From Tindallia sp. (GTDB taxonomy: Bacteria; Bacillota; Clostridia; Peptostreptococcales; Tindalliaceae), in contig SLLE01000130.1 in assembly GCA_007134225.1 (NCBI GenBank), positions 1 to 39,319 on the forward strand: a stretch of DNA of 39,319 nucleotides, given 5' to 3'. Each line of letters opens with the position of its first letter. Position 1 is the first letter of the stretch. The notes beneath the pieces are model-generated. The model did not search any database. It saw nothing but the letters and a program-made list of their open reading frames with translations, and was not told the origin of the DNA. This document shows positions 10,848-29,002 of the stretch, one piece after another. Made by a program: the position numbers and the translations under genes.

Positions 10848-12329
10848 ATGGAGAATGTTAAAAGTCAAGAGAACAAGCAATATCGAATTGCTCTAAGAAA
10901 TAGTGGTTTAATTGATCCCGGCGATATTAGCGACTATATTGCTTTTCGCGGTTATGAGGCATTGGGAAAAGTGCTGACAGAAATGGAACCCGCTGAAGTA
11001 GCTAAAATGGTTAAAGAATCCGGACTTCGAGGCCGTGGTGGCGGCGGTTTTCCCACAGGATTGAAGTGGGAATTCACACTAAAAGCTCCAGGTGATGAAA
11101 AATACCTGATCTGCAATGCAGATGAAGGCGATCCCGGAGCATTTATGGATCGATCTATTCTTGAAGGCGATCCGCATTCTTTGCTTGAAGCAATGGTCAT
11201 CGGTGGATACGCAACCGGTGCGAATAACGGCGTTATTTACATCAGAGCCGAGTATCCGCTGGCAATAAAGCGTTTACAGGTAGCCATTGATCAAGCAAGA
11301 GAAATGGGCTTTTTAGGAAAGGATATTTTCGGGTCCGGATTTGACTTTGATCTTTACCTGAAATTGGGCGCAGGCGCCTTTGTCTGTGGAGAAGAAACCT
11401 CCTTGATTCAGTCCGTGGAAGGTAAAAGGGGCGAACCTACGAAAAAACCGCCATTCCCGTCCGAGTCAGGATATATGGGTAAGCCCACAACGGTTAACAA
11501 CGTGGAAACTTTTGCAGCTGTTCCGCCGATCATTCTAAATGGACCTGAGTGGTTTCAGGGCATCGGTACAGAGACCTCCAAAGGAACAAAAGTGTTTGCA
11601 CTGGCAGGTGATATCAACAATGTTGGACTTGTGGAAGTTACGATGGGAACGACATTGCGTGAAATTATTTTTGATATTGGCGGCGGTATTCCCGGAGGAG
11701 CCAAGTTTAAGGCGGTGCAGACCGGCGGTCCATCCGGCGGTGTGATCACGGAACTCGATCTGGATACCCCTATTGACTACGAATCATTAAAAAACATTGG
11801 TTCCATGATGGGATCCGGTGGAATGATTGTTATGGATGATTCTACCTGCATGGTTAATATCGCAAAGTTTTTCCTGGAATTCACACAGGATGAGTCATGT
11901 GGAAAATGCACATCATGCCGGGTGGGAACCATGAGGATGTATGAAATTCTTGAAAAAATTACCAACGGCGAGGGAACAGAGCAAGATCTGATCAATCTGA
12001 ATGATTTGGCGAGAAGCGTTAAAGACACGGCTCTTTGCGGATTAGGTCAGACGGCACCAAACCCTGTTCTCTCTACGATGAATTACTATAAGCATGAATA
12101 CGAGGACCACGTCTACAATAAAAAATGCACGGCCGGAAGCTGTAAGGCATTATTGAGCTACTCCATCGATCCGGAGAAGTGTATCGGATGTACGGCCTGT
12201 CTGAAAGTATGCCCGACCAATTGTATTGATGGAAAAGCGAAAGAAGTGCATGTCATTCGTGAAGATGAGTGTATTGCATGTAATGCGTGTTTTGAAGCAT
12301 GTAAATTTGATGCAGTTATTAAACCATAG
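10848..12329 (+). CDS. hndC: Bifurcating hydrogenase flavin subunit C (NuoF-like, FMN/NAD(P)H)
   Basis: The 493-residue diaphorase subunit binds FMN and NAD(P)H and is the site where electrons enter or split between NAD(P)H and ferredoxin. Seen in order: [16 protein letters not shown] (about residues 59-74), [35 protein letters not shown], the [4Fe-4S] motif [12 protein letters not shown] with a later [10 protein letters not shown] cysteine, and a C-terminal 2x[4Fe-4S] ferredoxin domain ([23 protein letters not shown]). It lacks the N-terminal [2Fe-2S] domain seen in its paralogue at 15895, matching HndC rather than Thermotoga-type HydB. TAAGGAGG precedes ATG 10848. Confidence 0.94.
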
Positions 12330-12343
12330 AGAGGTGGGTTTTT

Positions 12344-14086
12344 ATGGATATGCTAAATGTTAATATAAATGGAATGGATCTTCAAGTTCCTAAAGGCACA
12401 ACAATTCTGGAAGCGGCAAAAAAATGCAACGTGCACATCCCGACTTTATGTCATTTAAATCTCGGTGAGCTGGGCGTTGTGAACCAGACGGCGTCCTGCC
12501 GTGTGTGTATGGTGGAAGTGGATAAAAGACCGGCTCTGGTGCCCTCCTGTTCTGACAAAGTGACAGAAGGCATGGTGGTGAAAACCGATTCAATGAGAGC
12601 CATAGCTGGACGCAGGACATCTGTAGAACTGTTGTTGTCCAATCATCCAACAGATTGTCTTGTGTGTCCTAAGAACTTGAGTTGTGATCTGCAAAGCCTG
12701 GCACAAGAGCTTGGAATCCGAGAGATTAAATGGGAAGGCAAGAGGATGGACTACGAAAAAGACTTATCCAGCTATTCACTTATCAAAGATCCAAATAAAT
12801 GCATTATGTGTCGACGTTGTGAGACCATGTGCAATGACGTACAGACCTGTGGAATTCTGTCAGCCATTGATCGCGGTTTTGACGCCTTTGTCGGTCCTGC
12901 ATTCAACTTGGATATGGTTGACACTTCTTGTACTTTCTGTGGCCAGTGTGTTGCAGTGTGTCCGACCGCTGCGCTGACAGAAGTGAATGAGGTTGGCGAT
13001 GTGCTGAGAGAACTGAATGACGAAAGCAAACATGTAGTGGTACAGGTAGCGCCGGCCATACGTGCTGCGATAGGAGAAATGTTTGGCATGGAGCCTGGAA
13101 CGCTGTCCACCGGTAAAATTGCGGCGTCTTTCAGAAGACTGGGTTTTGATGGTGTCTTTGACACGGATTTTGCAGCAGACCTAACCATCATGGAAGAAGC
13201 ATCCGAACTTGTTCACAGGATTCAGAACAATGGTCGTCTTCCTATGCTGACAAGTTGCTGCCCAGCATGGGTTAAGTTTATGGAGCATCAATTCCCTGAT
13301 ATGCTGGATGTTCCATCTAGTTGTCAGTCGCCACAAATCATGTTTGGAGCGATTGCAAAAACCTATTATGCAGAAAAGATGAACCTTAATCCTGAAGACA
13401 TCACGGTTGTTTCCGTCATGCCTTGCCTGGCTAAAAAAGCCGAGGCACATAGACCGGAGCTAAGTTGCGGAAGTGATTCCAACGTCGATATAGTCTTGTC
13501 GACCAGAGAGTATGCGCAGCTACTGAAGGAAGCCGGGATAGATTTTGCCACTCTGGCGGACGATGAGTTTGACTCCTTGATGGGTGAGAGTACGGGCGCA
13601 TCTGTTATATTCGGAGCGACCGGCGGGGTTATTGAAGCGGCTGTCAGAACCGCCTATGAATGGATTACCGGAGAAACCCTGGAAAACGTAGAATTTAAAC
13701 AATTGCGAGGGATGGAAGGAATCCGTGAAGCTACCGTGACCATTGGTGATATGGATGTCAAAATCGGAATCGCTCATGAGTTGGGGAATGCAAGGAAGTT
13801 GCTGGAAGATATTCGAGACGGAAAATCTGATTATCACGTCATAGAGATTATGGCTTGTCCGGGTGGCTGCGTTGGTGGCGGAGGTCAGCCCTACCATCAT
13901 GGAGACATTGAGATCCTTAAGAAACGTACAGCGGCGCTGTATCGGGAAGATGAAGGAAAAGCCAAACGTAAATCTCATGAGAATGAACAGATTATTAAGC
14001 TGTATGAGGAATTCCTTGGGAAGCCGTTCGGTGAAAAATCCCACAAGTTGCTTCATACCTGCTATCAGCCACGAGAAAGAATTTAG
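12344..14086 (+). CDS. hndD: [FeFe]-hydrogenase catalytic subunit D
   Basis: Catalyses H2 evolution/uptake at the H-cluster within the HndABCD complex. The 580-residue product begins with a [2Fe-2S] domain (SCRVCMVEVD, ~51-60), a His-Cys3 [4Fe-4S] motif (HPTDCLVCPKNLSC, 101-114), two [4Fe-4S] ferredoxin motifs (CIMCRRCETMC, CTFCGQCVAVCP), then the three H-cluster signatures: TSCCPAW (303-309), MPCLAKKAE (359-367) and EIMACPGGCVGGGGQP (501-516). All are canonical for a catalytically active, group A hydrogenase, and the C-terminal small domain ends with HTCYQPRERI. There is no extra C-terminal [2Fe-2S] domain. A strong terminator follows ~40 bases after the stop. Confidence 0.97.
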   Translation: MDMLNVNINGMDLQVPKGTTILEAAKKCNVHIPTLCHLNLGELGVVNQTASCRVCMVEVDKRPALVPSCSDKVTEGMVVKTDSMRAIAGRRTSVELLLSNHPTDCLVCPKNLSCDLQSLAQELGIREIKWEGKRMDYEKDLSSYSLIKDPNKCIMCRRCETMCNDVQTCGILSAIDRGFDAFVGPAFNLDMVDTSCTFCGQCVAVCPTAALTEVNEVGDVLRELNDESKHVVVQVAPAIRAAIGEMFGMEPGTLSTGKIAASFRRLGFDGVFDTDFAADLTIMEEASELVHRIQNNGRLPMLTSCCPAWVKFMEHQFPDMLDVPSSCQSPQIMFGAIAKTYYAEKMNLNPEDITVVSVMPCLAKKAEAHRPELSCGSDSNVDIVLSTREYAQLLKEAGIDFATLADDEFDSLMGESTGASVIFGATGGVIEAAVRTAYEWITGETLENVEFKQLRGMEGIREATVTIGDMDVKIGIAHELGNARKLLEDIRDGKSDYHVIEIMACPGGCVGGGGQPYHHGDIEILKKRTAALYREDEGKAKRKSHENEQIIKLYEEFLGKPFGEKSHKLLHTCYQPRERI

Positions 14087-14126
14087 GGACAGAAACAAAT
14101 ATCGTTCTTCACTGATTGGAAACAGG

Positions 14127-14165
14127 AGGAAATTCCCTGAAAACAAAAAAGGGAATTTCCTTTCT
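14127..14165 (+). terminator. Terminator of the hndABCD operon
   Basis: AGGAAATTCCCT (14127-14138) and AGGGAATTTCCT (14150-14161) form a perfect 12-bp stem with an A-rich loop and pyrimidine-rich tail. Just after it, TTTCTTTCTATG is repeated twice in tandem. Confidence 0.85.
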
Positions 14166-14314
14166 TTCTATGTTTCTTTCTATGTTGAAAGAACTTGACC
14201 TATAAGCATCGTTATTTATTTCATGAAAAAGCTTGTATGATTCGGGATGTGGCAATTGGCAGGCGTATCCTGGCTAAATAAGATGAAATAAGAAAAGGAG
14301 AGATCACTATTTTA

Positions 14315-14818
14315 ATGATGGCTAAAAAAAATGATTCTGTTTCGTTGTTAACCAAAACAGCAATATTACTGGCTTTGGCTCTGATCTTTCAGATTGGTCT
14401 GGCCTCTCTGGCTCAACCGGTAGTGGGGCCTTTGGTCAACATGGTGCTAATCCTTGCAGTGCTCACAACACATCCTGGCTCAGCGGTGCTGATTGGCTGC
14501 ATGACACCAATGGCAGCGTTTATGCTTGGAATTATGCCTCTTTTCCCGGTGATTCCTGTGATTATGATGGGCAACATTAGTTTAGTCCTGGTGTTTAGCA
14601 TGCTTAAGAAAAATGTGTGGCTGGCAGTTGTATTGGCGGCGATGACAAAATTTTTGGTGATGGCAGGCCTGATTCGCATCCTGGCCGCGTTCTTTATACC
14701 GGGTCTTCCCGCACCCATCCTTGCCGCCATGACATTCCCTCAGTTTTTTACTGCGCTGCTGGGTGGGTTCCTGGCTGTCGTTATAGACAGACGATTGCCA
14801 TGGAAGATACTCAGCTGA
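14315..14818 (+). CDS. Small polytopic membrane protein, ECF S-component-like
   Basis: A 167-residue, very hydrophobic protein with roughly five to six membrane segments (starting at residues ~10-30, 38-55, 58-80, 82-100, 105-130, 140-160). The conserved-looking core contains QPVVGPLVN, TPMAAFMLGI and PVIPVIMMGN. This overall look resembles substrate-binding (S) components of ECF-type transporters and small membrane proteins that occur beside hydrogenase genes in clostridia; function is not known. ATG 14315 has AGGAG 14 bases upstream, unusually far. It is flanked by terminators on both sides, so it is monocistronic between hndABCD and the formate dehydrogenase operon. Confidence 0.75.
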   Translation: MMAKKNDSVSLLTKTAILLALALIFQIGLASLAQPVVGPLVNMVLILAVLTTHPGSAVLIGCMTPMAAFMLGIMPLFPVIPVIMMGNISLVLVFSMLKKNVWLAVVLAAMTKFLVMAGLIRILAAFFIPGLPAPILAAMTFPQFFTALLGGFLAVVIDRRLPWKILS

Positions 14819-14860
14819 ACAAGAAGGCTGCTGAAAAAATAAGAATCATAACGAGATAAC

Positions 14861-14888
14861 GAAGCCGGCCTGATTTTGGCTGGTTTTT
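14861..14888 (+). terminator. Terminator after the membrane protein gene
   Basis: AAGCCGGCC pairs with GGCTGGTTT over 9 bp with two G-U pairs around loop TGATTTT, followed by a T-rich tail. Confidence 0.75.
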
Positions 14889-14898
14889 GTTGTTCATT

Positions 14899-14926
14899 TT
14901 GAATTTGAATCATAATCATTTATAAT
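14899..14926 (+). promoter_or_regulatory. Promoter of the formate dehydrogenase operon
   Basis: TTGAAT (14899-14904), 16 bases, perfect TATAAT (14921-14926), 77 bases before the first ATG. Unlike the hnd promoter, no Rex-like site overlaps it. Confidence 0.7.
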
Positions 14927-15003
14927 GATAAAAGGGTAGTAAAATATTTGATATGGAAAAAAACAAATGGAAGAAAATATCAGAATAAGTGGGAGGTAAA
15001 AGA

Positions 15004-15477
15004 ATGCCAAAAGAAACCATGACAGCAGAGAATTTTCAAAAATTGGATAAATTGATCCTTCAGGAAAAAGAAACGAAAGGAGCACTGATCCAGGTACTGC
15101 AGAAAGCTCAGGGTATTTTTGGATATCTGCCCATCGAGGTGCAGCAGAAAATTTCAAAAGGCCTGCGAATTCCCATGAGTGAAATCTATGGGGTGGTTAC
15201 GTTCTACTCACAGTTTAACCTGGAGCCCAAAGGTGACTATATGATTTCTGTCTGCATGGGAACAGCCTGTTACGTTCGAAATGCTCAGCCAATCCTGGAA
15301 AAAATATCTAAAATTATTGGGATTAAGTCAGGCGAAACTTCTCCTGATGGTAAATTCAGTCTGATTGCTTGTCGTTGCATCGGTGCTTGTGGACTAGCTC
15401 CTGTTATCACGGTTAATGAAGACGTATATGGTCGTCTGGCGGTGGAAGATATAAAAGGAATTATTGAGAAATACTAA
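15004..15477 (+). CDS. NuoE-like [2Fe-2S] subunit of the formate dehydrogenase complex
   Basis: A 157-residue paralogue of hndA. It has the same N-terminal helix pattern (LIQVLQKAQGIFGYLPIEV) and the four ligands in CMGTAC and RCIGAC. It should pass electrons between the flavin subunit and the formate dehydrogenase catalytic subunit in a HylABC-FdhF-like complex. ATG 15004 is chosen because GGGAGGT lies 6 bases upstream; an in-frame GTG at 14989 would place that RBS inside the coding sequence. First gene of an operon reaching at least 20405 and probably 21739. Confidence 0.9.
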   Translation: MPKETMTAENFQKLDKLILQEKETKGALIQVLQKAQGIFGYLPIEVQQKISKGLRIPMSEIYGVVTFYSQFNLEPKGDYMISVCMGTACYVRNAQPILEKISKIIGIKSGETSPDGKFSLIACRCIGACGLAPVITVNEDVYGRLAVEDIKGIIEKY

Positions 15478-15496
15478 AAAAATAGGGAGGATTTTC

Positions 15497-15862
15497 ATGA
15501 AAACATTTGCTGAACTGGAAGCTATTCGAAAAAAAGCGCAAAAAGATGTAAGACTTCGCAGCGGCAGCGGTGATGTCAGGGTAGTGGTTGGGATGGACAA
15601 CTGTGGGATTGAAGCCGGCGCCAGACAAATTACAATAGCATTGATGGATGAAATCAATAAGCATAATCTTCAGGATGTAACGGTAACACAAACTGAATGC
15701 CTTGGCGCGTGCAGACTTGAGCCAATGCTGGAACTTTATGAAGGTGAGAAGAAGACAACTTATGTGAAACTGACACCTGAACTGGCTCGCCAAATCGTAA
15801 CTGAGCATTTGGTCAATGGAAAGACTTTGAAAAGCCAAACCATTGGTGTTTTCGAAAGATAG
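15497..15862 (+). CDS. HndB-like small ferredoxin-domain subunit of the formate dehydrogenase complex
   Basis: A 121-residue paralogue of hndB at 10433: shared MxxCGIxxGA, a TEC/GC-x3-C pair (ECLGAC) and a similar C-terminal helix (ARQIVTEHLVNGK). Only three ligand cysteines are visible, as in hndB. Start ATG 15497 follows AGGGAGG; an upstream in-frame ATG at 15464 overlaps the previous gene and lacks an RBS. It is notable because the next gene already carries its own N-terminal [2Fe-2S] domain, so the complex would contain two copies of this fold. Confidence 0.85.
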   Translation: MKTFAELEAIRKKAQKDVRLRSGSGDVRVVVGMDNCGIEAGARQITIALMDEINKHNLQDVTVTQTECLGACRLEPMLELYEGEKKTTYVKLTPELARQIVTEHLVNGKTLKSQTIGVFER

Positions 15863-15894
15863 AAGCGAATAACATAAAGTAAGGAGGGAAAGCT

Positions 15895-17691
15895 ATGGAG
15901 TTGTACAGATCTCATGTACTGGTTTGTGGCAGTACAGGATGTGTTTCTTCAGACTCCCTTAAGATCATTGATTTGTTCAATAAGGAACTGGAGAAGCATG
16001 GACTTGAAAAAGAAATAAAGGTGGTTCAGACTGGGTGTTTTGGTCTTTGTGAGGCAGGACCAATTGTCATTGTGTATCCGGAAGGTTCCTTTTACAGCCA
16101 GGTAAAACTGGACGATGTTCCCAGAATTACGGAAGAACATTTATTAAAAGGCCTTATTGTTCATGACCTTACCTATAAAGAACCAGGTAAAAAAGAGGCA
16201 AGTGACAGCATTGACGATATGGGTTTTTACAAAAAGCAGCAACGTGTGGCCCTTCGAAATTGCGGTGTCATTGATCCGGAAATTCTTAAAGAATACATTG
16301 CCTATGATGGATATGCCGCACTGGCAAAAGTACTGACAAAAATGTCTCCGGAAGAAGTGGTGGAAACCATAAAAGCATCCGGTCTTCGTGGTCGTGGTGG
16401 AGGCGGATTTCCAACTGGCCTGAAATGGGAATTTACCAGCAAGGCTGAAGGAGATGTTAAATACGTTGCTTGTAACGCGGACGAAGGAGACCCAGGCGCG
16501 TTTATGGATCGATCCGTACTGGAGGGTGATCCGCATACGCTGGTAGAATCCATGACCATTGCTGCGTATGCCGTTGGTGCTAATTACGGTTTTGTATATG
16601 TGCGTGCTGAGTATCCCATTGCAGTTAAACGGTTACAGATTGCTATCGACCAGGCCAGGGAAAATGACCTGCTTGGAGAAGATATTCTCGGATCTGGCTT
16701 TAGCTTTGACATGGAGATCCGCGAGGGTGCCGGAGCTTTTGTCTGTGGCGAAGAAACGGCATTGATTCAATCCATTGAAGGCAGAAGAGGAATGCCAAAA
16801 GTAAGGCCGCCATTTCCTGCCAACAAAGGGATTTTTGATAAACCCACCTTGCTGAACAACGTGGAAACCTTTGCTAATATTAACCAGATCATTCTAAAGG
16901 GAGCCGACTGGTTTGCTGGAATCGGAACAGAAAAATCCAAAGGCACGAAAGTGTTTGCTTTGGGTGGAAAAATTAACAACACTGGTCTTTTGGAGATCCC
17001 CATGGGAACCACACTTCAAGAAACCATTTTTGAAGTGGGCGGCGGTATACCTAATGGAAAAGCTTTTAAAGCAGTTCAAACAGGAGGACCATCCGGTGGA
17101 TGTATTCCTGCTGAACACCTGGACACTCCCATTGATTATGAAAACCTCATCGCCCTTGGCTCCATGATGGGATCCGGCGGTATGATCGTTATGGACGAAG
17201 ACAACTGCATGGTGGACGTTGCTAGATTTTTCCTTGACTTTACAGAAGAAGAATCCTGTGGAAAGTGCACCCCATGCCGTGAAGGAATCAAAAGAATGCA
17301 TGAGCTTCTGGATAAAATCACAGAAGGTAAAGGAAAACTCCAAGACGTGGATAAGTTGGAAACATTGGCAAAAACCATCAAAAAAGCTTCATTATGTGGT
17401 TTGGGACAGACAGCTCCCAATCCGGTGTTGTCAACGATCAGGTATTTCCGGTACGAATATGAAGCTCATGTGAATGAGAAAATGTGTCCTGCTGGCGTTT
17501 GCCAGGCATTGCTTCAATTCCTGGTCATACCGGAAAAATGCAAAAAATGCGGGATTTGTGCAGCTAAATGCCCGGTTAATTGCATAAGTGGTGTGAAAGG
17601 AAAAGAAGTATATCTGATTGATCAGGCAAAATGCATTAAATGTGGAGCCTGTCTGGAAGCTTGTCCTTTTGATGCCATTAAAAAAGGATAA
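15895..17691 (+). CDS. NuoF-like flavin subunit of the formate dehydrogenase complex
   Basis: A 598-residue diaphorase subunit, HydB/HylB type. It has an N-terminal thioredoxin-like [2Fe-2S] domain with all four cysteines (CGSTGC at ~11-16 and GCFGLC), followed by the NuoF core ([44 protein letters not shown]), the ESCGKCTPCREG cluster motif, and a C-terminal 2x[4Fe-4S] ferredoxin domain (CKKCGICAAKCP, CIKCGACLEACP). It is expected to bind FMN and NAD(P)H and to connect these with ferredoxin and formate oxidation or CO2 reduction. Compared with hndC the core is very similar, but this one keeps the extra N-terminal domain. AAGGAGGG precedes the start. Confidence 0.93.
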   Translation: MELYRSHVLVCGSTGCVSSDSLKIIDLFNKELEKHGLEKEIKVVQTGCFGLCEAGPIVIVYPEGSFYSQVKLDDVPRITEEHLLKGLIVHDLTYKEPGKKEASDSIDDMGFYKKQQRVALRNCGVIDPEILKEYIAYDGYAALAKVLTKMSPEEVVETIKASGLRGRGGGGFPTGLKWEFTSKAEGDVKYVACNADEGDPGAFMDRSVLEGDPHTLVESMTIAAYAVGANYGFVYVRAEYPIAVKRLQIAIDQARENDLLGEDILGSGFSFDMEIREGAGAFVCGEETALIQSIEGRRGMPKVRPPFPANKGIFDKPTLLNNVETFANINQIILKGADWFAGIGTEKSKGTKVFALGGKINNTGLLEIPMGTTLQETIFEVGGGIPNGKAFKAVQTGGPSGGCIPAEHLDTPIDYENLIALGSMMGSGGMIVMDEDNCMVDVARFFLDFTEEESCGKCTPCREGIKRMHELLDKITEGKGKLQDVDKLETLAKTIKKASLCGLGQTAPNPVLSTIRYFRYEYEAHVNEKMCPAGVCQALLQFLVIPEKCKKCGICAAKCPVNCISGVKGKEVYLIDQAKCIKCGACLEACPFDAIKKG

Positions 17692-17732
17692 CCCCAAATG
17701 ATGCTGACAAGCAAAGGAGGATGAGAACAAGG

Positions 17733-20405
17733 ATGATTACCCTTAAAATTAACGGTTTCGAAGTGCAGGTGGAGCGAGGTGCCACAATCCTTCAAGCCGC
17801 CGAAAAAGTTGGAATAAAGATTCCGATGTTTTGTTATGATGAGCGCTTTAAGCCGCATGGTTCGTGCCGAATCTGTGTGGTGGAAGTAGAAGGTGCCCGA
17901 TCGCTGATGACAGCTTGCTGTATTCCTGCCGCGGACGGTATGGTGGTGCAAACAGAAAGCGAAGTGGTGGTGGAGGCGCGAAAAGAAATTTTGGATCTTA
18001 TCCTGGCGAATCACCCGTTGGATTGTCTGACCTGTGAGCAGGCTGGAAGATGTACGTTGCAGGATCTTTGCTATCAATATGATATAGAAGAGACTTCTTA
18101 CGAGGGTGCAAGAAAGAGCTACGAAAAAGACGTGTCCAATGAATTTTATACCGCTGACCAGACCAAATGCATCCTATGCGGAAAATGCGTTTATATGTGC
18201 TCTCAGGTACAGAATACGGATGCACTTTGCTTTGTGGACAGAGGGTTTGAAACCCATATTGGTACTCCCTTTGAGCAGGGAATTGCCGAATCAACCTGTG
18301 TGTCATGCGGAAACTGTGTATCTGTATGTCCTGTTGGCGCGCTGATGCCAAAAAGAAGAGAAAAGTATCGTTACTGGGAAGTGGAAAAAGTACAAACCAC
18401 ATGCGCTTATTGTGGTGTAGGTTGTCAAATGGAATTACTGGTCAAAGACAACCGAATTGTGGAAGTGCTTCCGGTAAAAGGCCATTGCAACGAAGGTCTT
18501 CTTTGTGTAAAGGGAAGATTTTCCTTCGATTTTGTTAACCATCGGGACCGTCTGAAAAAGCCGCTCATTCGGAAAAACGGTGAACTGGAAGAAGCAACTT
18601 GGGACGAAGCTTACGATCTCATTGTGAGTAAAATAAATGAAATTAAAGAAAGCGACGGCCCGGATGCTATCTCAGCCTTTTCATCCGCCCGTGGCCTGAC
18701 GGAAGACAACTACCTGATGACCAAGATGATGCGTGCTGTGGTTGGAACCAATAATGTGGATCACTGCGCACGCCTCTGACATTCCTCTACAGTTGCAGGT
18801 CTTGCAATTACATTAGGAAGCGGAGCCATGACCAACAGCATTGCAGACATCCAAACAGCCGACACCATGTTTATCACTGGATCTAATACGACAGAAAACC
18901 ATCCAGTTATTGGCGCTCAGTTGAAAGGAGCCGTTAAAGCAGGTAAAAAACTGATTGTGGCGGATCCGAGGGAAATTGAAATGGCTGAGTATGCGGATGT
19001 GTTCCTGAAGATTAAACCAGGAACCAGCGTGGCATTGCATAACGCTATGATGAATGTGATCATCCAAGAAGGACTGGAAGACAAAGCCTATATTCAAAAC
19101 ACAACAGAAGGCTATGAAGAGATGAAAAAATTAGTAGAAAAATACACACCGGAATATGTGTCGGAAATTTGCGAGGTGGATGCGGAAGACATTCGTCTAG
19201 CAGCTATACTTTACGGCGAAGCCAGAACAGCTACCATCATTTACTGCATGGGAATCACCCAGCATGTGACTGGAACGGAAAGCGTTATGACGTTGGCTGA
19301 CATGGCCATGCTGACAGGAAACCTTGGTAAAGCGGGCGGTGGCGTTAATCCCCTTCGAGGACAGAACAATGTTCAGGGAGCTTGTGATATGGGAGCCCTG
19401 CCAAATGTCTTCACTGGTTATCAAAAAGTAACGGATGCCACTATTGTTAAGAAATTTGAAGATGCATGGGGTGTGAAGCTGTCTGATCAACCGGGACTGA
19501 CCATAACCGATACCGTGGCAGCCATCGATGATGACAGAGTAAAAATGCTTTATGTCTTTGGTGAGAACCCCATGATTTCTGATCCGGATACGCATCATGT
19601 GGAAAAAGCACTGAAAAAAGCTTTTGTAGTCGTTCAGGATCTTTTCCTGACAGAGACGGCAGAACTGGCAGACGTTGTATTGCCGGCAGCAGCCTACGCA
19701 GAAAAGGATGGTACCTTTGTTAATACAGAAAGACGTGTGCAGCGTGTCCGAAAAGCAGTCAATGCACCAGGTGAAGCAAAACCGGACTGGATGATCTTCA
19801 TGGAAATCATGAACCGGCTTGGTTACGAAAAAAAGTACAGCAGCGCAGAAGAAGTATTTGAAGAAATCCGCCAGGTAACACCACAGTATGCAGGGATAAG
19901 CTATCAGCGCCTCGAGAATGCTGGTATTGCATGGCCATGCCCGACAGAAGAACATCCTGGCACACCAATTCTTCATATTGGCAAACCTGCCCGAGGAGTA
20001 GGATTGTTTAAAGCCATTGAGTTTGCTGAATCCGGCGAATTGGGAGATCCGGAATATCCATTGGTGCTCACCACCGGACGTATTCTGTATCAGTATCATA
20101 CGCGCAGCATGACTGGCAAAACAGAAGGAATTAACAATTTGGCTCCGGAATCTTACATTGAGATTAATCCGAAATTGGCTGCGAAAAAAGGCATCAAAGA
20201 TGGAGATATGATAAAAGTTAAATCCCGACGCGGCGAAGTGAAAATCAAAGCCAAGGTAACGGAACGAGTGGAAGAAAATGTTCTCTTCATTCCCTTCCAC
20301 TGGTCAGAAGGTGCCAATGTGTTGACCAATGGAGAAGAGTTTGATCAATTCAGTAAAATCCCTGGCCTAAAAGTGACAGGCATTAATATCGAAAAACTGG
20401 CATAA
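17733..20405 (+). CDS. fdhF: Selenocysteine-containing formate dehydrogenase catalytic subunit (UGA read through at 18777)
   Basis: Interconverts formate and CO2 at a Mo/W-bis-pterin site. Reading in one frame gives 890 residues if the TGA at 18777-18779 encodes selenocysteine (U349) in CARLUHSSTVAGL, the exact active-site context of formate dehydrogenases. N-terminal ~210 residues are NuoG/hydrogenase-like: [2Fe-2S] (C34, C45, C48, C63 region), His-Cys3 cluster (HPLDCLTCEQAGRC), two ferredoxin motifs; then the FDH [4Fe-4S] ligands C224, C227, C231 and C258, the molybdopterin core, and the C-terminal dinucleotide-binding domain (TTGRILYQYHTRSMT). A SECIS-like hairpin follows the UGA. ATG 17733 is preferred to ATG 17721, which abuts the AGGAGG. 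Gene finders that stop at TGA would split it into 17721-18779 and 18828-20405. Confidence 0.95.
18780..18809 (+). promoter_or_regulatory. Bacterial SECIS-like element in fdhF
   Basis: Eleven bases after the UGA, AGTTGCA (18791-18797) and TGCAATT (18803-18809) form a 7-bp stem with one G-U closing on loop GGTCT. The apical GTTGCAGGTCT segment is almost the same as in the E. coli fdhF SECIS that binds SelB. Position and loop support UGA recoding. Confidence 0.85.
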
Positions 20406-21810: not shown

Positions 21811-21819
21811 TGTTATAAT
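21811..21819 (+). promoter_or_regulatory. Extended -10 promoter of the moaA leader
   Basis: TGTTATAAT is a TGn-extended consensus -10. The matching -35 region (TATGCA, 17 bases upstream) is poor, as is common with extended -10 promoters. Confidence 0.6.
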
Positions 21820-21847
21820 GTTTGTAATATTATCGATAAATAAATAA

Positions 21848-21997
21848 TTTTCCGAGCTGTCGTTTTCTAAGGATGCTTTTATCAGCATCTATGAAATGCA
21901 GCCGCGGGTATAAAGAGAAATTTTTATACCTCCCACTCTTGGAAAGGAAAAAACAACACCAGCAACAAGGTGCCTTTCCGGGACACCTTGTTTTTTT
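21848..21997 (+). promoter_or_regulatory. Moco/Tuco riboswitch-like leader of moaA
   Basis: The 278-base spacer before moaA is highly structured. TTTTCCGAG (21848-21856) pairs with CTTGGAAAG (21938-21946) to close the element. Inside are GCTG/CAGC, a GATGC-GCATC hairpin (21872-21889), and GGTATAAA/TTTATACC (21907-21930). The words CCGAGC, GCCGCGGGT and CCTCCCACTCTTGGAAAGG are reminiscent of the Moco RNA motif, which regulates molybdenum/tungsten cofactor genes. The closing-stem strand GGAAAGG can instead pair with CCTTTCC in the terminator loop, giving a ligand-off antiterminator. Presence of a third hairpin favours Moco over Tuco, with low certainty. Confidence 0.75.
21964..21997 (+). terminator. 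Attenuator terminator in the moaA leader
   Basis: AACAAGGTG (21964-21972) and CACCTTGTT (21984-21992) make a 9-bp stem around loop CCTTTCCGGGA, followed by TTTTTTT, ending 20 bases before the moaA ATG. Confidence 0.85.
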
Positions 21998-22017
21998 ATC
22001 GTTTAGGAGGGCTAAAA

Positions 22018-22980
22018 ATGGCAGATCGTTTTCAGCGTAAAATTAATTACATGAGGATCTCTATTACAGACCTTTGCAACATGAGGTGTTTGTACTGCAT
22101 GCCGGAGAAAGGCATTCAGAAAAAGCCGCATACGGCTTTTCTGAGTTATGAAGAGCTCGTTTCTATTGTCAAAGCCAGCGTACCGCTAGGAATTGATAAG
22201 CTTAGAATTACCGGCGGAGAACCGTTGGTTCGGAAAGGAATCCTTGGGTTTATTCAATCCCTTGGTGAAATTGACGGCATCCGTGAAATCACCATGACCA
22301 CCAACGGCAGTCTGCTGGGCGACATGGCAGAACCGCTGAAAAATGCGGGAATAACCCGTTTTAATATCAGTATTGACTCTTTGCAGGAAGATCGATATAG
22401 AGAAATTACCAGGGGCGGAGAGCTGAAAGATGTCCTTCGCGGTATTGACAAAGCGCTGGAGCTGGATATGAAGCCGGTGAAACTGAACGCGGTTGTAATT
22501 GGTGGCTACAATGAAGAAGAACTGGAAGATTTCGCAAACCTGACCTATGATCAGCCGATCGATGTTCGATTCATTGAACTGATGCCGGTGGGCGAGGCAA
22601 GTCAGTGGGCAAAATCCCGGTTTATATCCAATGACACCATTAAAAAAAGGTTAGGACTATTGAATCCTTTGAAAGGAGCCCAGGGAAGTCCGGCAAAATA
22701 TTATCAGCTTCCTGGTGCAAAAGGGAAAATAGGGTTCATTAATCCCATCAGCGACCATTTTTGCAGTGAATGCAATCGTATCCGACTTACCAGTGATGGA
22801 AAACTGAAGCCATGCCTTCATTCGAATGAAGAAATCGATTTATTGCCAATCCTGAGGGATCATCCGGAAAAAATTGGAGAAATCGTGGCCGCTGCCATTG
22901 ATGCCAAACCGGAAAGGCATCTGTTGAACCAGGAAAACGCCATTTGCACCAGTCGAAACATGTGTCAGATTGGAGGATGA
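22018..22980 (+). CDS. moaA: GTP 3',8-cyclase MoaA
   Basis: MoaA performs the first step of molybdopterin biosynthesis, the radical SAM conversion of GTP to 3',8-cH2GTP. The 320-residue product has the N-terminal C20-x3-C24-x2-C27 cluster motif (DLCNMRCLYCMPEKG), an RITGGEPLVRKG segment, the second cluster ligands CSECNRIR...KPCL near the C-terminus and the terminal GG (QIGG) that MoaA inserts into its active site. ATG 22018 follows TAGGAGGG; an in-frame start at 21970 would lie inside the terminator hairpin. Regulated by the upstream leader. It supplies the pterin cofactor for the formate dehydrogenase encoded just upstream; moaC is not in the window. Confidence 0.95.
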   Translation: MADRFQRKINYMRISITDLCNMRCLYCMPEKGIQKKPHTAFLSYEELVSIVKASVPLGIDKLRITGGEPLVRKGILGFIQSLGEIDGIREITMTTNGSLLGDMAEPLKNAGITRFNISIDSLQEDRYREITRGGELKDVLRGIDKALELDMKPVKLNAVVIGGYNEEELEDFANLTYDQPIDVRFIELMPVGEASQWAKSRFISNDTIKKRLGLLNPLKGAQGSPAKYYQLPGAKGKIGFINPISDHFCSECNRIRLTSDGKLKPCLHSNEEIDLLPILRDHPEKIGEIVAAAIDAKPERHLLNQENAICTSRNMCQIGG

Positions 22981-22983
22981 GGC

Positions 22984-23406
22984 ATGATTTTCGTCGAAAA
23001 GATCCTAACGAAGGACGAGACCGGTGCCTGGTGTGAACAGCAGAGCATGAACACCGAAACTGTCCAACTTCAATCGACTAAAAAAGATATCTCCTTTCTG
23101 GCCATGGAAGACTGGGAACAGCTGAATAACGATACAAATAAGGGGTTCTGTCACCAGCGTTTTCGTCCGAACATCATCATTAGTCAGTTTTATATGGTTA
23201 TTAGCAAGCCTGGCACTCATTTCGAAATAGGAAATGCCAGGCTTGTTGTTGTGGGAAGTAAAAACCGCTGTCATGAAGCATGTCCGCGATTTCAGAAAAG
23301 CAGGCAAATATGCGACTGGAAACGGCGCGCTTTCTATGCGGATATCATTCTCGACGGAAGGATCAGGAAGGGCGATCCGCTTTACTACTTCATTGACCAA
23401 CCATGA
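22984..23406 (+). CDS. Divergent small MOSC-domain protein
   Basis: A 140-residue protein whose second half fits a MOSC domain: FEIGNARLVVVGSKNRCHEACPRF, then a further Cys ~10 residues on, and DGRIRKGDPL at the end. The CH-x2-C arrangement is the conserved ligand region of MOSC proteins, which handle the sulfurated Mo cofactor. The N-terminal half lacks the GxEGDAHAG segment normally seen, so it is shortened or diverged. It begins 3 bases after the moaA stop with GGAGG in the moaA tail, so it is co-translated and shares the riboswitch-like control. Exact role in cofactor trafficking is unknown. Confidence 0.7.
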   Translation: MIFVEKILTKDETGAWCEQQSMNTETVQLQSTKKDISFLAMEDWEQLNNDTNKGFCHQRFRPNIIISQFYMVISKPGTHFEIGNARLVVVGSKNRCHEACPRFQKSRQICDWKRRAFYADIILDGRIRKGDPLYYFIDQP

Positions 23407-28097: not shown

Positions 28098-28126
28098 TTC
28101 ACCTTAAATAAGAAATGGAGTATAAT
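28098..28126 (+). promoter_or_regulatory. Promoter of yqeB-dnaE
   Basis: TTCACC (28098-28103), 17 bases, perfect TATAAT (28121-28126). It overlaps an ATG at 28115 that could otherwise be taken as a start, supporting ATG 28190 for the next gene. Confidence 0.65.
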
Positions 28127-28189
28127 AAAATTGTATACCAAAAGCCGCATCTGAGCGTAAGGAACGAACAAAGAAGGGGAGTGGATGGT

Positions 28190-29002
28190 ATGTTGCGGGA
28201 TATCGTTGCCATACGTGGCGGCGGGGAAGTTGGAACAGCAATCGCACATAAGCTTCGAAGAAGTGGATTTAAGGTATTTATCATTGAGAATGAGTATCCG
28301 TTTTCCATTCGTCGGACTGTATCATACGCCCAGGCCGTTTTTGATAATGAAATGGTGGTTCAGGGAATCAAAGGAATAAAAGTGGAAGACGTTGCAGGCA
28401 TTCTACAGGCATGGAAAAACAAGCAAATTCCGATTATTGTTGATTCTGAATGTGATATTCTGAAAGAAATACCCGTAGATATTCTGGTGGACGCTATTAT
28501 GGCTAAAAGAAATCTTGGAACCCATCGGGACATGGCTGCCATCACCATTGCTCTGGGATCTGGGTTTGAAGCCGTCAAAGATGTGGATATTGTCATTGAA
28601 ACCAAGCTGGGGCATGATCATGGTCGGCTCATTTTTGAAGGCTCCGCTGAGCCCGAAACCAATATGCCAGGAGAAAGCGATGGATTTGAATACAATAAAG
28701 TGCAAAACTCTCCTGCGGAAGGAATTGCCAAGACCTTTGCGGAAATTGGTGACCAAGTTTCCAAAGGACAGAAGCTGGCAGAAGTCGCCGGTCATACTAT
28801 TCGTGCACAGCAACATGGGATGCTGCGTGGCATTATCAAAAATGGCAGTAAAATCTGGAAAGACCAAAAAATCCTTGAAATAGACCCGGATGTAACAGAA
28901 GAACAATGTTACCGCTTGTCACAACGATCAAGAGATGTGGCAGGTGGTGTGCTGGAAGCCATATTGTACCTGAAAAATGAGAAACAGCTGAACATTGATT
29001 AA
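28190..29002 (+). CDS. yqeB: YqeB-like selenium-dependent molybdenum hydroxylase system protein
   Basis: A 270-residue protein beginning with a Rossmann-like dinucleotide motif (IRGGGEVGTAIAHKL), followed by VVQGIKGIKVE, DAIMAKRN, ALGSGFEA and ETKLGHDHGRLIFEGSAEP, the pattern of the EF2563/YqeB family linked to selenium-dependent (labile Se) molybdenum hydroxylases. Role: probably maturation of those hydroxylases; biochemistry is not established. Start ATG 28190 follows AGGGGAG; ATG 28115 is within the promoter. It sits alone between whiA and dnaE with no hydroxylase genes nearby, so its partners must be elsewhere. Confidence 0.8.
   Translation: MLRDIVAIRGGGEVGTAIAHKLRRSGFKVFIIENEYPFSIRRTVSYAQAVFDNEMVVQGIKGIKVEDVAGILQAWKNKQIPIIVDSECDILKEIPVDILVDAIMAKRNLGTHRDMAAITIALGSGFEAVKDVDIVIETKLGHDHGRLIFEGSAEPETNMPGESDGFEYNKVQNSPAEGIAKTFAEIGDQVSKGQKLAEVAGHTIRAQQHGMLRGIIKNGSKIWKDQKILEIDPDVTEEQCYRLSQRSRDVAGGVLEAILYLKNEKQLNID

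Follow-up and report, generated by a model that had tools for sequence, protein, structure and literature searches.

The stretch of DNA analyzed here (hereafter the window) is 39,319 nt long and carries on its + strand a riboswitch-like leader directly upstream of the cofactor-synthesis gene moaA, which is followed by a MOSC-domain gene. Upstream of the leader lie a rubrerythrin-type gene, fdhD and a formate dehydrogenase, whose alpha subunit (17721-20405) is interrupted at 18777-18779 by an in-frame TGA (..VDHCARL-TGA-HSS..) and so appears as two ORFs. The genome search reads the alpha subunit as a single 907-aa frame with one TGA, and this codon very likely encodes selenocysteine. NuoF-like subunits, a group A6 [FeFe]-hydrogenase and this Sec-formate dehydrogenase are clustered at 10848-20405, an arrangement that we take to resemble the electron-bifurcating hydrogenase-formate dehydrogenase complexes of acetogens. 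On the other side, a YqeB gene (selenium-dependent molybdenum hydroxylase maturation, 28115-29002) sits between whiA and dnaE. The features of the leader and of the two genes behind it are as follows.

21811-21819, + strand: extended -10 element TGTTATAAT, the likely leader promoter as read from the sequence
21838-21965, + strand: Moco/Tuco riboswitch aptamer of the P3-less type (RF01055, full length)
21848-21853, + strand: 5' strand of P1, UUUUCC (RF01055 alignment and fold)
21906-21931, + strand: P4, with its GAAA tetraloop at 21917-21920 (RF01055 alignment and fold)
21932-21942, + strand: P5, CC 21932-21933 with GG 21941-21942 (RF01055 alignment)
21937-21947, + strand: 5' strand of the antiterminator, containing GGAAAGG and overlapping P5 and the first two P1 pairs (prefix folds and duplex energy)
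21946-21951, + strand: 3' strand of P1, GGAAAA (RF01055 alignment and fold)
21957-21972, + strand: helper hairpin CACC/GGUG, occupying some of the terminator 5' arm when the leader is antiterminated (prefix folds)
21964-21997, + strand: intrinsic terminator, a 9-bp stem with three inner pairs and a U-tract at 21991-21997 (fold; d-score 24.3)
21973-21983, + strand: 3' strand of the antiterminator, containing CCUUUCC, within the terminator loop (prefix folds and duplex energy)
22005-22011, + strand: Shine-Dalgarno sequence AGGAGGG of moaA (sequence)
22018-22980, + strand: moaA, GTP 3',8-cyclase (TIGR02666, 368 bits over a cut-off of 284)
22984-23406, + strand: MOSC-domain protein gene, probably co-transcribed with moaA (PF03473)

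A simple -35/-10 consensus scan found no complete promoter for the leader.

The aptamer was identified by cmscan against Rfam 15, in which RF01055, the Molybdenum/Tungsten riboswitch aptamer, matched over its whole model (positions 1-135), scoring 72.6 bits where the gathering score is 36 (E = 8e-16), the sole Rfam match within the window. The earlier note had proposed a Moco/Tuco-like riboswitch here and suggested a covariance-model search against the Moco RNA family; the full-length match at twice the gathering score bears this out, and the window leader, judged by its sequence, is a new member of this known family. The alignment contains the conserved junction core together with P1, P2, P4 and P5, including UCCGAGC, the GAAA tetraloop of P4, CCUCCC and UUGGAAAGG, while the model positions of P3 are deleted. 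A receptor-like UCUAAG...UAUGA in P2 aligns to the consensus CCUAAG...UAUGG. Folding the leader with ViennaRNA recovered P1, P2, P4 and a hairpin at P5, and the entire leader fold is more stable than expected by chance (z = -3.8). The closing stem that had been drawn at 21848-21856/21938-21946 can indeed pair, with two G-U pairs, but it is not P1 of the family, which the alignment places at 21848-21853/21946-21951. In simulated elongation that register was the best fold only transiently, at chain ends 21945-21949, and the family P1 was favored once it was complete.

Downstream of the aptamer, the terminator has its arms at 21964-21972/21984-21992 and is followed by the T-run, as had been claimed; it was found by a d-score-based search and was missed by a consensus terminator scan of the + strand, whose loop limit excludes the 11-nt loop. 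The alternative pairing of GGAAAGG (21941-21947) with CCTTTCC (21973-21979) is likewise present, and it extends to 11 pairs, 21937-21947/21973-21983. This duplex between the aptamer and the terminator has an energy of -16.7 kcal/mol, which was reached in none of 2000 dinucleotide-preserving shuffles. The antiterminator stacks on a further helix that was absent from the earlier description, CACC 21957-21960/GGUG 21969-21972, and because this helper helix occupies four bases of the terminator 5' arm, the two structures exclude each other by a shared strand and not by topology alone. When elongation was simulated by folding the growing chain as successive prefixes with ViennaRNA, the best fold was the aptamer with P1 for chains ending at or before 21977, then the antiterminator for ends at 21981-21989 and finally, from 21993 onward, the terminator alongside an intact aptamer. 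Strand sharing and the prefix folds show that terminator and antiterminator cannot coexist and that P1 and the antiterminator compete. The two end states are nearly equal in energy (-49.4 and -48.2 kcal/mol, in calculations that take no account of ligand or tertiary contacts), which is what a kinetic switch needs.

The antiterminator is kept among relatives. Three further genomes of the host's genus have moaA leaders that retain CCUUUCC in the terminator loop despite a changed stem (AAGGUG/CACCUU to AAGAC/GUCUU), which supports the OFF logic. Of 116 relatives that combine a terminator with a GGAAAGG core, 56 have a CCUUUC-type motif complementary to that core, against 7.5 expected, and the duplexes were stronger than shuffled ones (Wilcoxon 3e-17). 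What is shown here is that the leader belongs to the family, that its helices exclude one another, that relatives conserve them, and which genes it precedes.

Since forming the antiterminator takes up P5, the junction and the first two P1 pairs, a ligand that holds the aptamer should favor termination. When the cofactor is scarce, GGAAAGG, which is common to P5, the junction and P1, would pair with CCUUUCC once the latter is transcribed, and the antiterminator with its CACC/GGUG helper would block the terminator so that moaA is transcribed. When the cofactor is bound, P1 and P5 would be held, CCUUUCC would stay free, the terminator would form about 10 nt later and synthesis would stop. The OFF-switch reading put forward earlier is thus supported by the order of folds during elongation and by the conservation of CCUUUCC in the genus, and the register of the closing stem is the one point of the earlier description to be amended. 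We conclude, with a probability of roughly 0.8, that the window leader is a P3-less (Tuco-type) OFF switch acting on moaA-MOSC through transcription termination, with the tungsten cofactor as its most likely ligand; ligand binding, ligand identity and the direction of regulation are predictions.

Whether molybdenum or tungsten is sensed had been left open, and we examined the host genome (2.35 Mb, 96.5% complete, 3.9% contamination) for genes that bear on it. Three RF01055 copies exceed the gathering score there, all without P3: the window copy, one on a TupABC-like operon (L005:9859) and one on a ferredoxin-AOR-MoaD locus (L006:2437-2573). The transporter comparison suggested before, modABC versus tupABC, gave one TupA match, under the second copy, and no ModA over the cut-off in the genome; the TupA-like score is 225 bits, below the curated NCBIfam cut-off of 400. 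The genome further holds ten AFOR_C domain matches, one MoCoBD-type hydroxylase and six molybdopterin oxidoreductases, three of them with an in-frame TGA. By AOR sequence, the closest named relatives are a Bacillota MAG (81%) and Dethiobacter spp. (69-70%). The founding paper (Regulski et al. 2008, PMC2408646) reports that P3-less RNAs occur in organisms with tungsten genes and ties the absence of P3 to the tungsten cofactor; the window copy has no P3 stem and its host carries tungsten genes, as in this Tuco subtype.

The same RNA with the same OFF logic could instead sense the molybdenum cofactor, or either cofactor, if the P3 rule fails here. The MoCoBD-type Mo hydroxylase in the genome and yqeB in the window would fit such a ligand, and in the founding paper the P3 rule is a correlation to which its authors give exceptions, removal of P3 from the E. 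coli RNA having abolished regulation with no change of specificity (PMC2408646). We nevertheless regard a molybdenum ligand as unlikely, since P3 is missing from all three copies, the genome has TupA yet no ModA over the cut-off, and AOR, a tungsten-enzyme family, lies under a sister copy. The P3-less RNAs, TupA with no ModA over the cut-off, the ten AFOR_C matches and the AOR under a sister copy together favor tungsten as the metal of the sensed cofactor, and the question thus now leans toward tungsten.

Control might also be mainly translational, the aptamer region sequestering the Shine-Dalgarno sequence and the terminator being secondary. In the full-length best fold 21936-21943 does pair with 22002-22009, which includes part of the Shine-Dalgarno sequence, but this helix is a weak one, rich in G-U pairs, that does not arise until transcription has passed the terminator. 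Moreover, the terminator with its U-tract is strong (as its d-score indicates), and relatives retain a terminator with the CCUUUCC loop, so that we consider this improbable. That the leader is a constitutive attenuator or a protein-bound RNA merely resembling the aptamer is less probable still: the founding paper presents direct ligand binding as not demonstrated for the family and a protein factor as not excluded (PMC2408646), but the match is full length, with the GAAA tetraloop, all stems but P3 and a conserved antiterminator.

The window copy is no different in kind from the P3-less Tuco subtype (Regulski et al. 2008, PMC2408646), with which it shares the core CCGAG, GGG...GAAA...CCUCCC and UUGGAAAGG, the stems P1/P2/P4/P5 without P3, a position upstream of moaA and an intrinsic terminator. 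The exact antiterminator, in which aptamer GGAAAGG pairs with terminator-loop CCUUUCC, is described here for the window locus. The E. coli moaA Moco riboswitch serves the same gene and is likewise predicted to lower expression as the cofactor rises, but it has P3 and carries the Shine-Dalgarno sequence inside P1, acting on translation, whereas the window copy lacks P3 and its terminator is a separate element. A reanalysis of RNA-seq data suggests that termination also occurs at the E. coli copy (PMC12121620).

The AOR-linked sister copy appears to be wired in the opposite sense. Like the window copy it exceeds the RF01055 gathering score (43.9 bits) and has P1 and P4 without P3, but it differs in a reduced P2, in CCGAU, in GCAAAGG/CCUGCC, which makes P5 a G-C pair, and in a terminator that starts inside the 3' strand of P1. 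This strand, GGAGUUC (L006:2528-2534), overlaps the start of the terminator 5' arm (terminator L006:2531-2573), and in the folds P1 forms first and is then displaced by the terminator (-44.7 to -51.3 kcal/mol). A ligand holding P1 would block this terminator, and the model thus predicts that the AOR-linked copy in the host genome is an ON switch.

We then compared 188 aptamers from Clostridia-type genomes, in all of which terminators were scored automatically. They comprise 121 RF01055 matches from a search of 98 genomes and 67 more, of which 64 were recovered in a 291-genome class search with R1, a model made from five aptamers of the AOR type, and the other three came from loci that bear AOR. 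R1 extends about ten bases into the terminator 5' arm and excludes the 3' arm, and this second set is enriched for the ON type. A terminator overlapping P1 was found in 18 of the 188, all 18 AOR-linked, and a separate terminator in 140, none of them AOR-linked; none was scored in the remaining 30. The association (Fisher 5e-24) is overstated because related genomes are not independent. Within the 98-genome set alone, which was chosen blind to this feature, the overlap was present in 5/5 AOR-linked copies and in none of the others. The 18 copies come from 14 searched genomes (11 genera, 9 families) and one named MAG, and their terminator stems differ in sequence while the overlap with P1 is kept. 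Predicted ON-type examples are L006:2437-2573 (contig C69), L127, L128, L274, L276, L277, L238 and L137. In the last, a MAG, a single contig bears both an ON-type copy, ahead of ferredoxin-AOR, and a standard one, ahead of tupA, which means that the pairing is no binning artefact.

The ON-type aptamers have GCAAAGG with CCUGCC where the standard ones have GGAAAGG with CCUCCC, and CCGAU/C versus CCGAG. The former is a compensated change in P5, a pair that varies among relatives (C-G, G-C, and U-A in other copies). Two GCAAAGG copies are not AOR-linked: L133, before a 4Fe-4S protein, and L275 (3135-5033, - strand), where a weak terminator overlaps P1 of the aptamer and the genes behind it are a PAS/sigma-54 activator and then an alcohol-dehydrogenase-like ORF. 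Conversely, most AOR genes are not under a Moco/Tuco RNA; in the 40 loci scanned among 71 AOR-relative loci, RF01055 found two copies and R1 one more. A terminator is missing from seven AOR-linked copies, and in one more it is weak and below the threshold. L030 (G054:C14:9656-9774) is AOR-linked with a standard core and no terminator, and its CUUUUCC could pair with GGAAAGG or with the Shine-Dalgarno region; it is possibly a translational OFF switch, and AOR copies may not all be ON.

Other genes of relatives are preceded by P3-less aptamers as well. Four Aldedh-family genes (L058, L063, L080 and L099) have aptamers with the core GGAAAGA, and in their leaders a conserved CCUUCUUUU pairs with two partners, the 3' strand of P1 (-8.2 kcal/mol) and the Shine-Dalgarno sequence (-8 to -10 kcal/mol). 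We predict a translational OFF switch here, controlling an isozyme that presumably does not depend on tungsten. P3-less aptamers also precede genes for [FeFe]-hydrogenase-type, surface (SLH, Kelch/subtilase, Big_5) and Oxidored_molyb-domain proteins (L239, L243, L249, L056, L071, L097 and L129).

Taken as a whole, the copies probably form a tungsten-cofactor regulon of opposite signs within one genome, a reading we hold somewhat less firmly than that of the window copy itself. The moaA and tupA copies would be OFF switches using an antiterminator between aptamer and terminator, and the AOR copies would be ON switches in which a variant aptamer shares its P1 3' strand with the terminator 5' arm; the altered P5 and reduced P2 could tune the aptamer to the cofactor form of AOR. 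In some relatives the copy on a conventional aldehyde dehydrogenase is predicted to act as a translational OFF switch, which would amount to a tungsten-dependent isozyme swap. The founding paper notes terminator-linked and Shine-Dalgarno-linked copies and discusses repression, with no mention, in the sections consulted, of activation via an overlap of P1 and terminator (PMC2408646); later reviews merely list the riboswitch class, and our search of the literature on AOR or Tuco riboswitches, mostly of papers outside subscription, found no earlier report of ON-type members.

The window copy alone is a well-formed Tuco-type riboswitch with a simple antiterminator, and the surprising part, the AOR sister copy of opposite sign, lies outside the window and raises the interest of the locus. 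The host genome offers a natural set of three switches, on synthesis, uptake and use, and thereby an internal control for what P3-less RNAs sense. If tungsten represses moaA and tupA and activates AOR, the ligand and both wirings would be established together.
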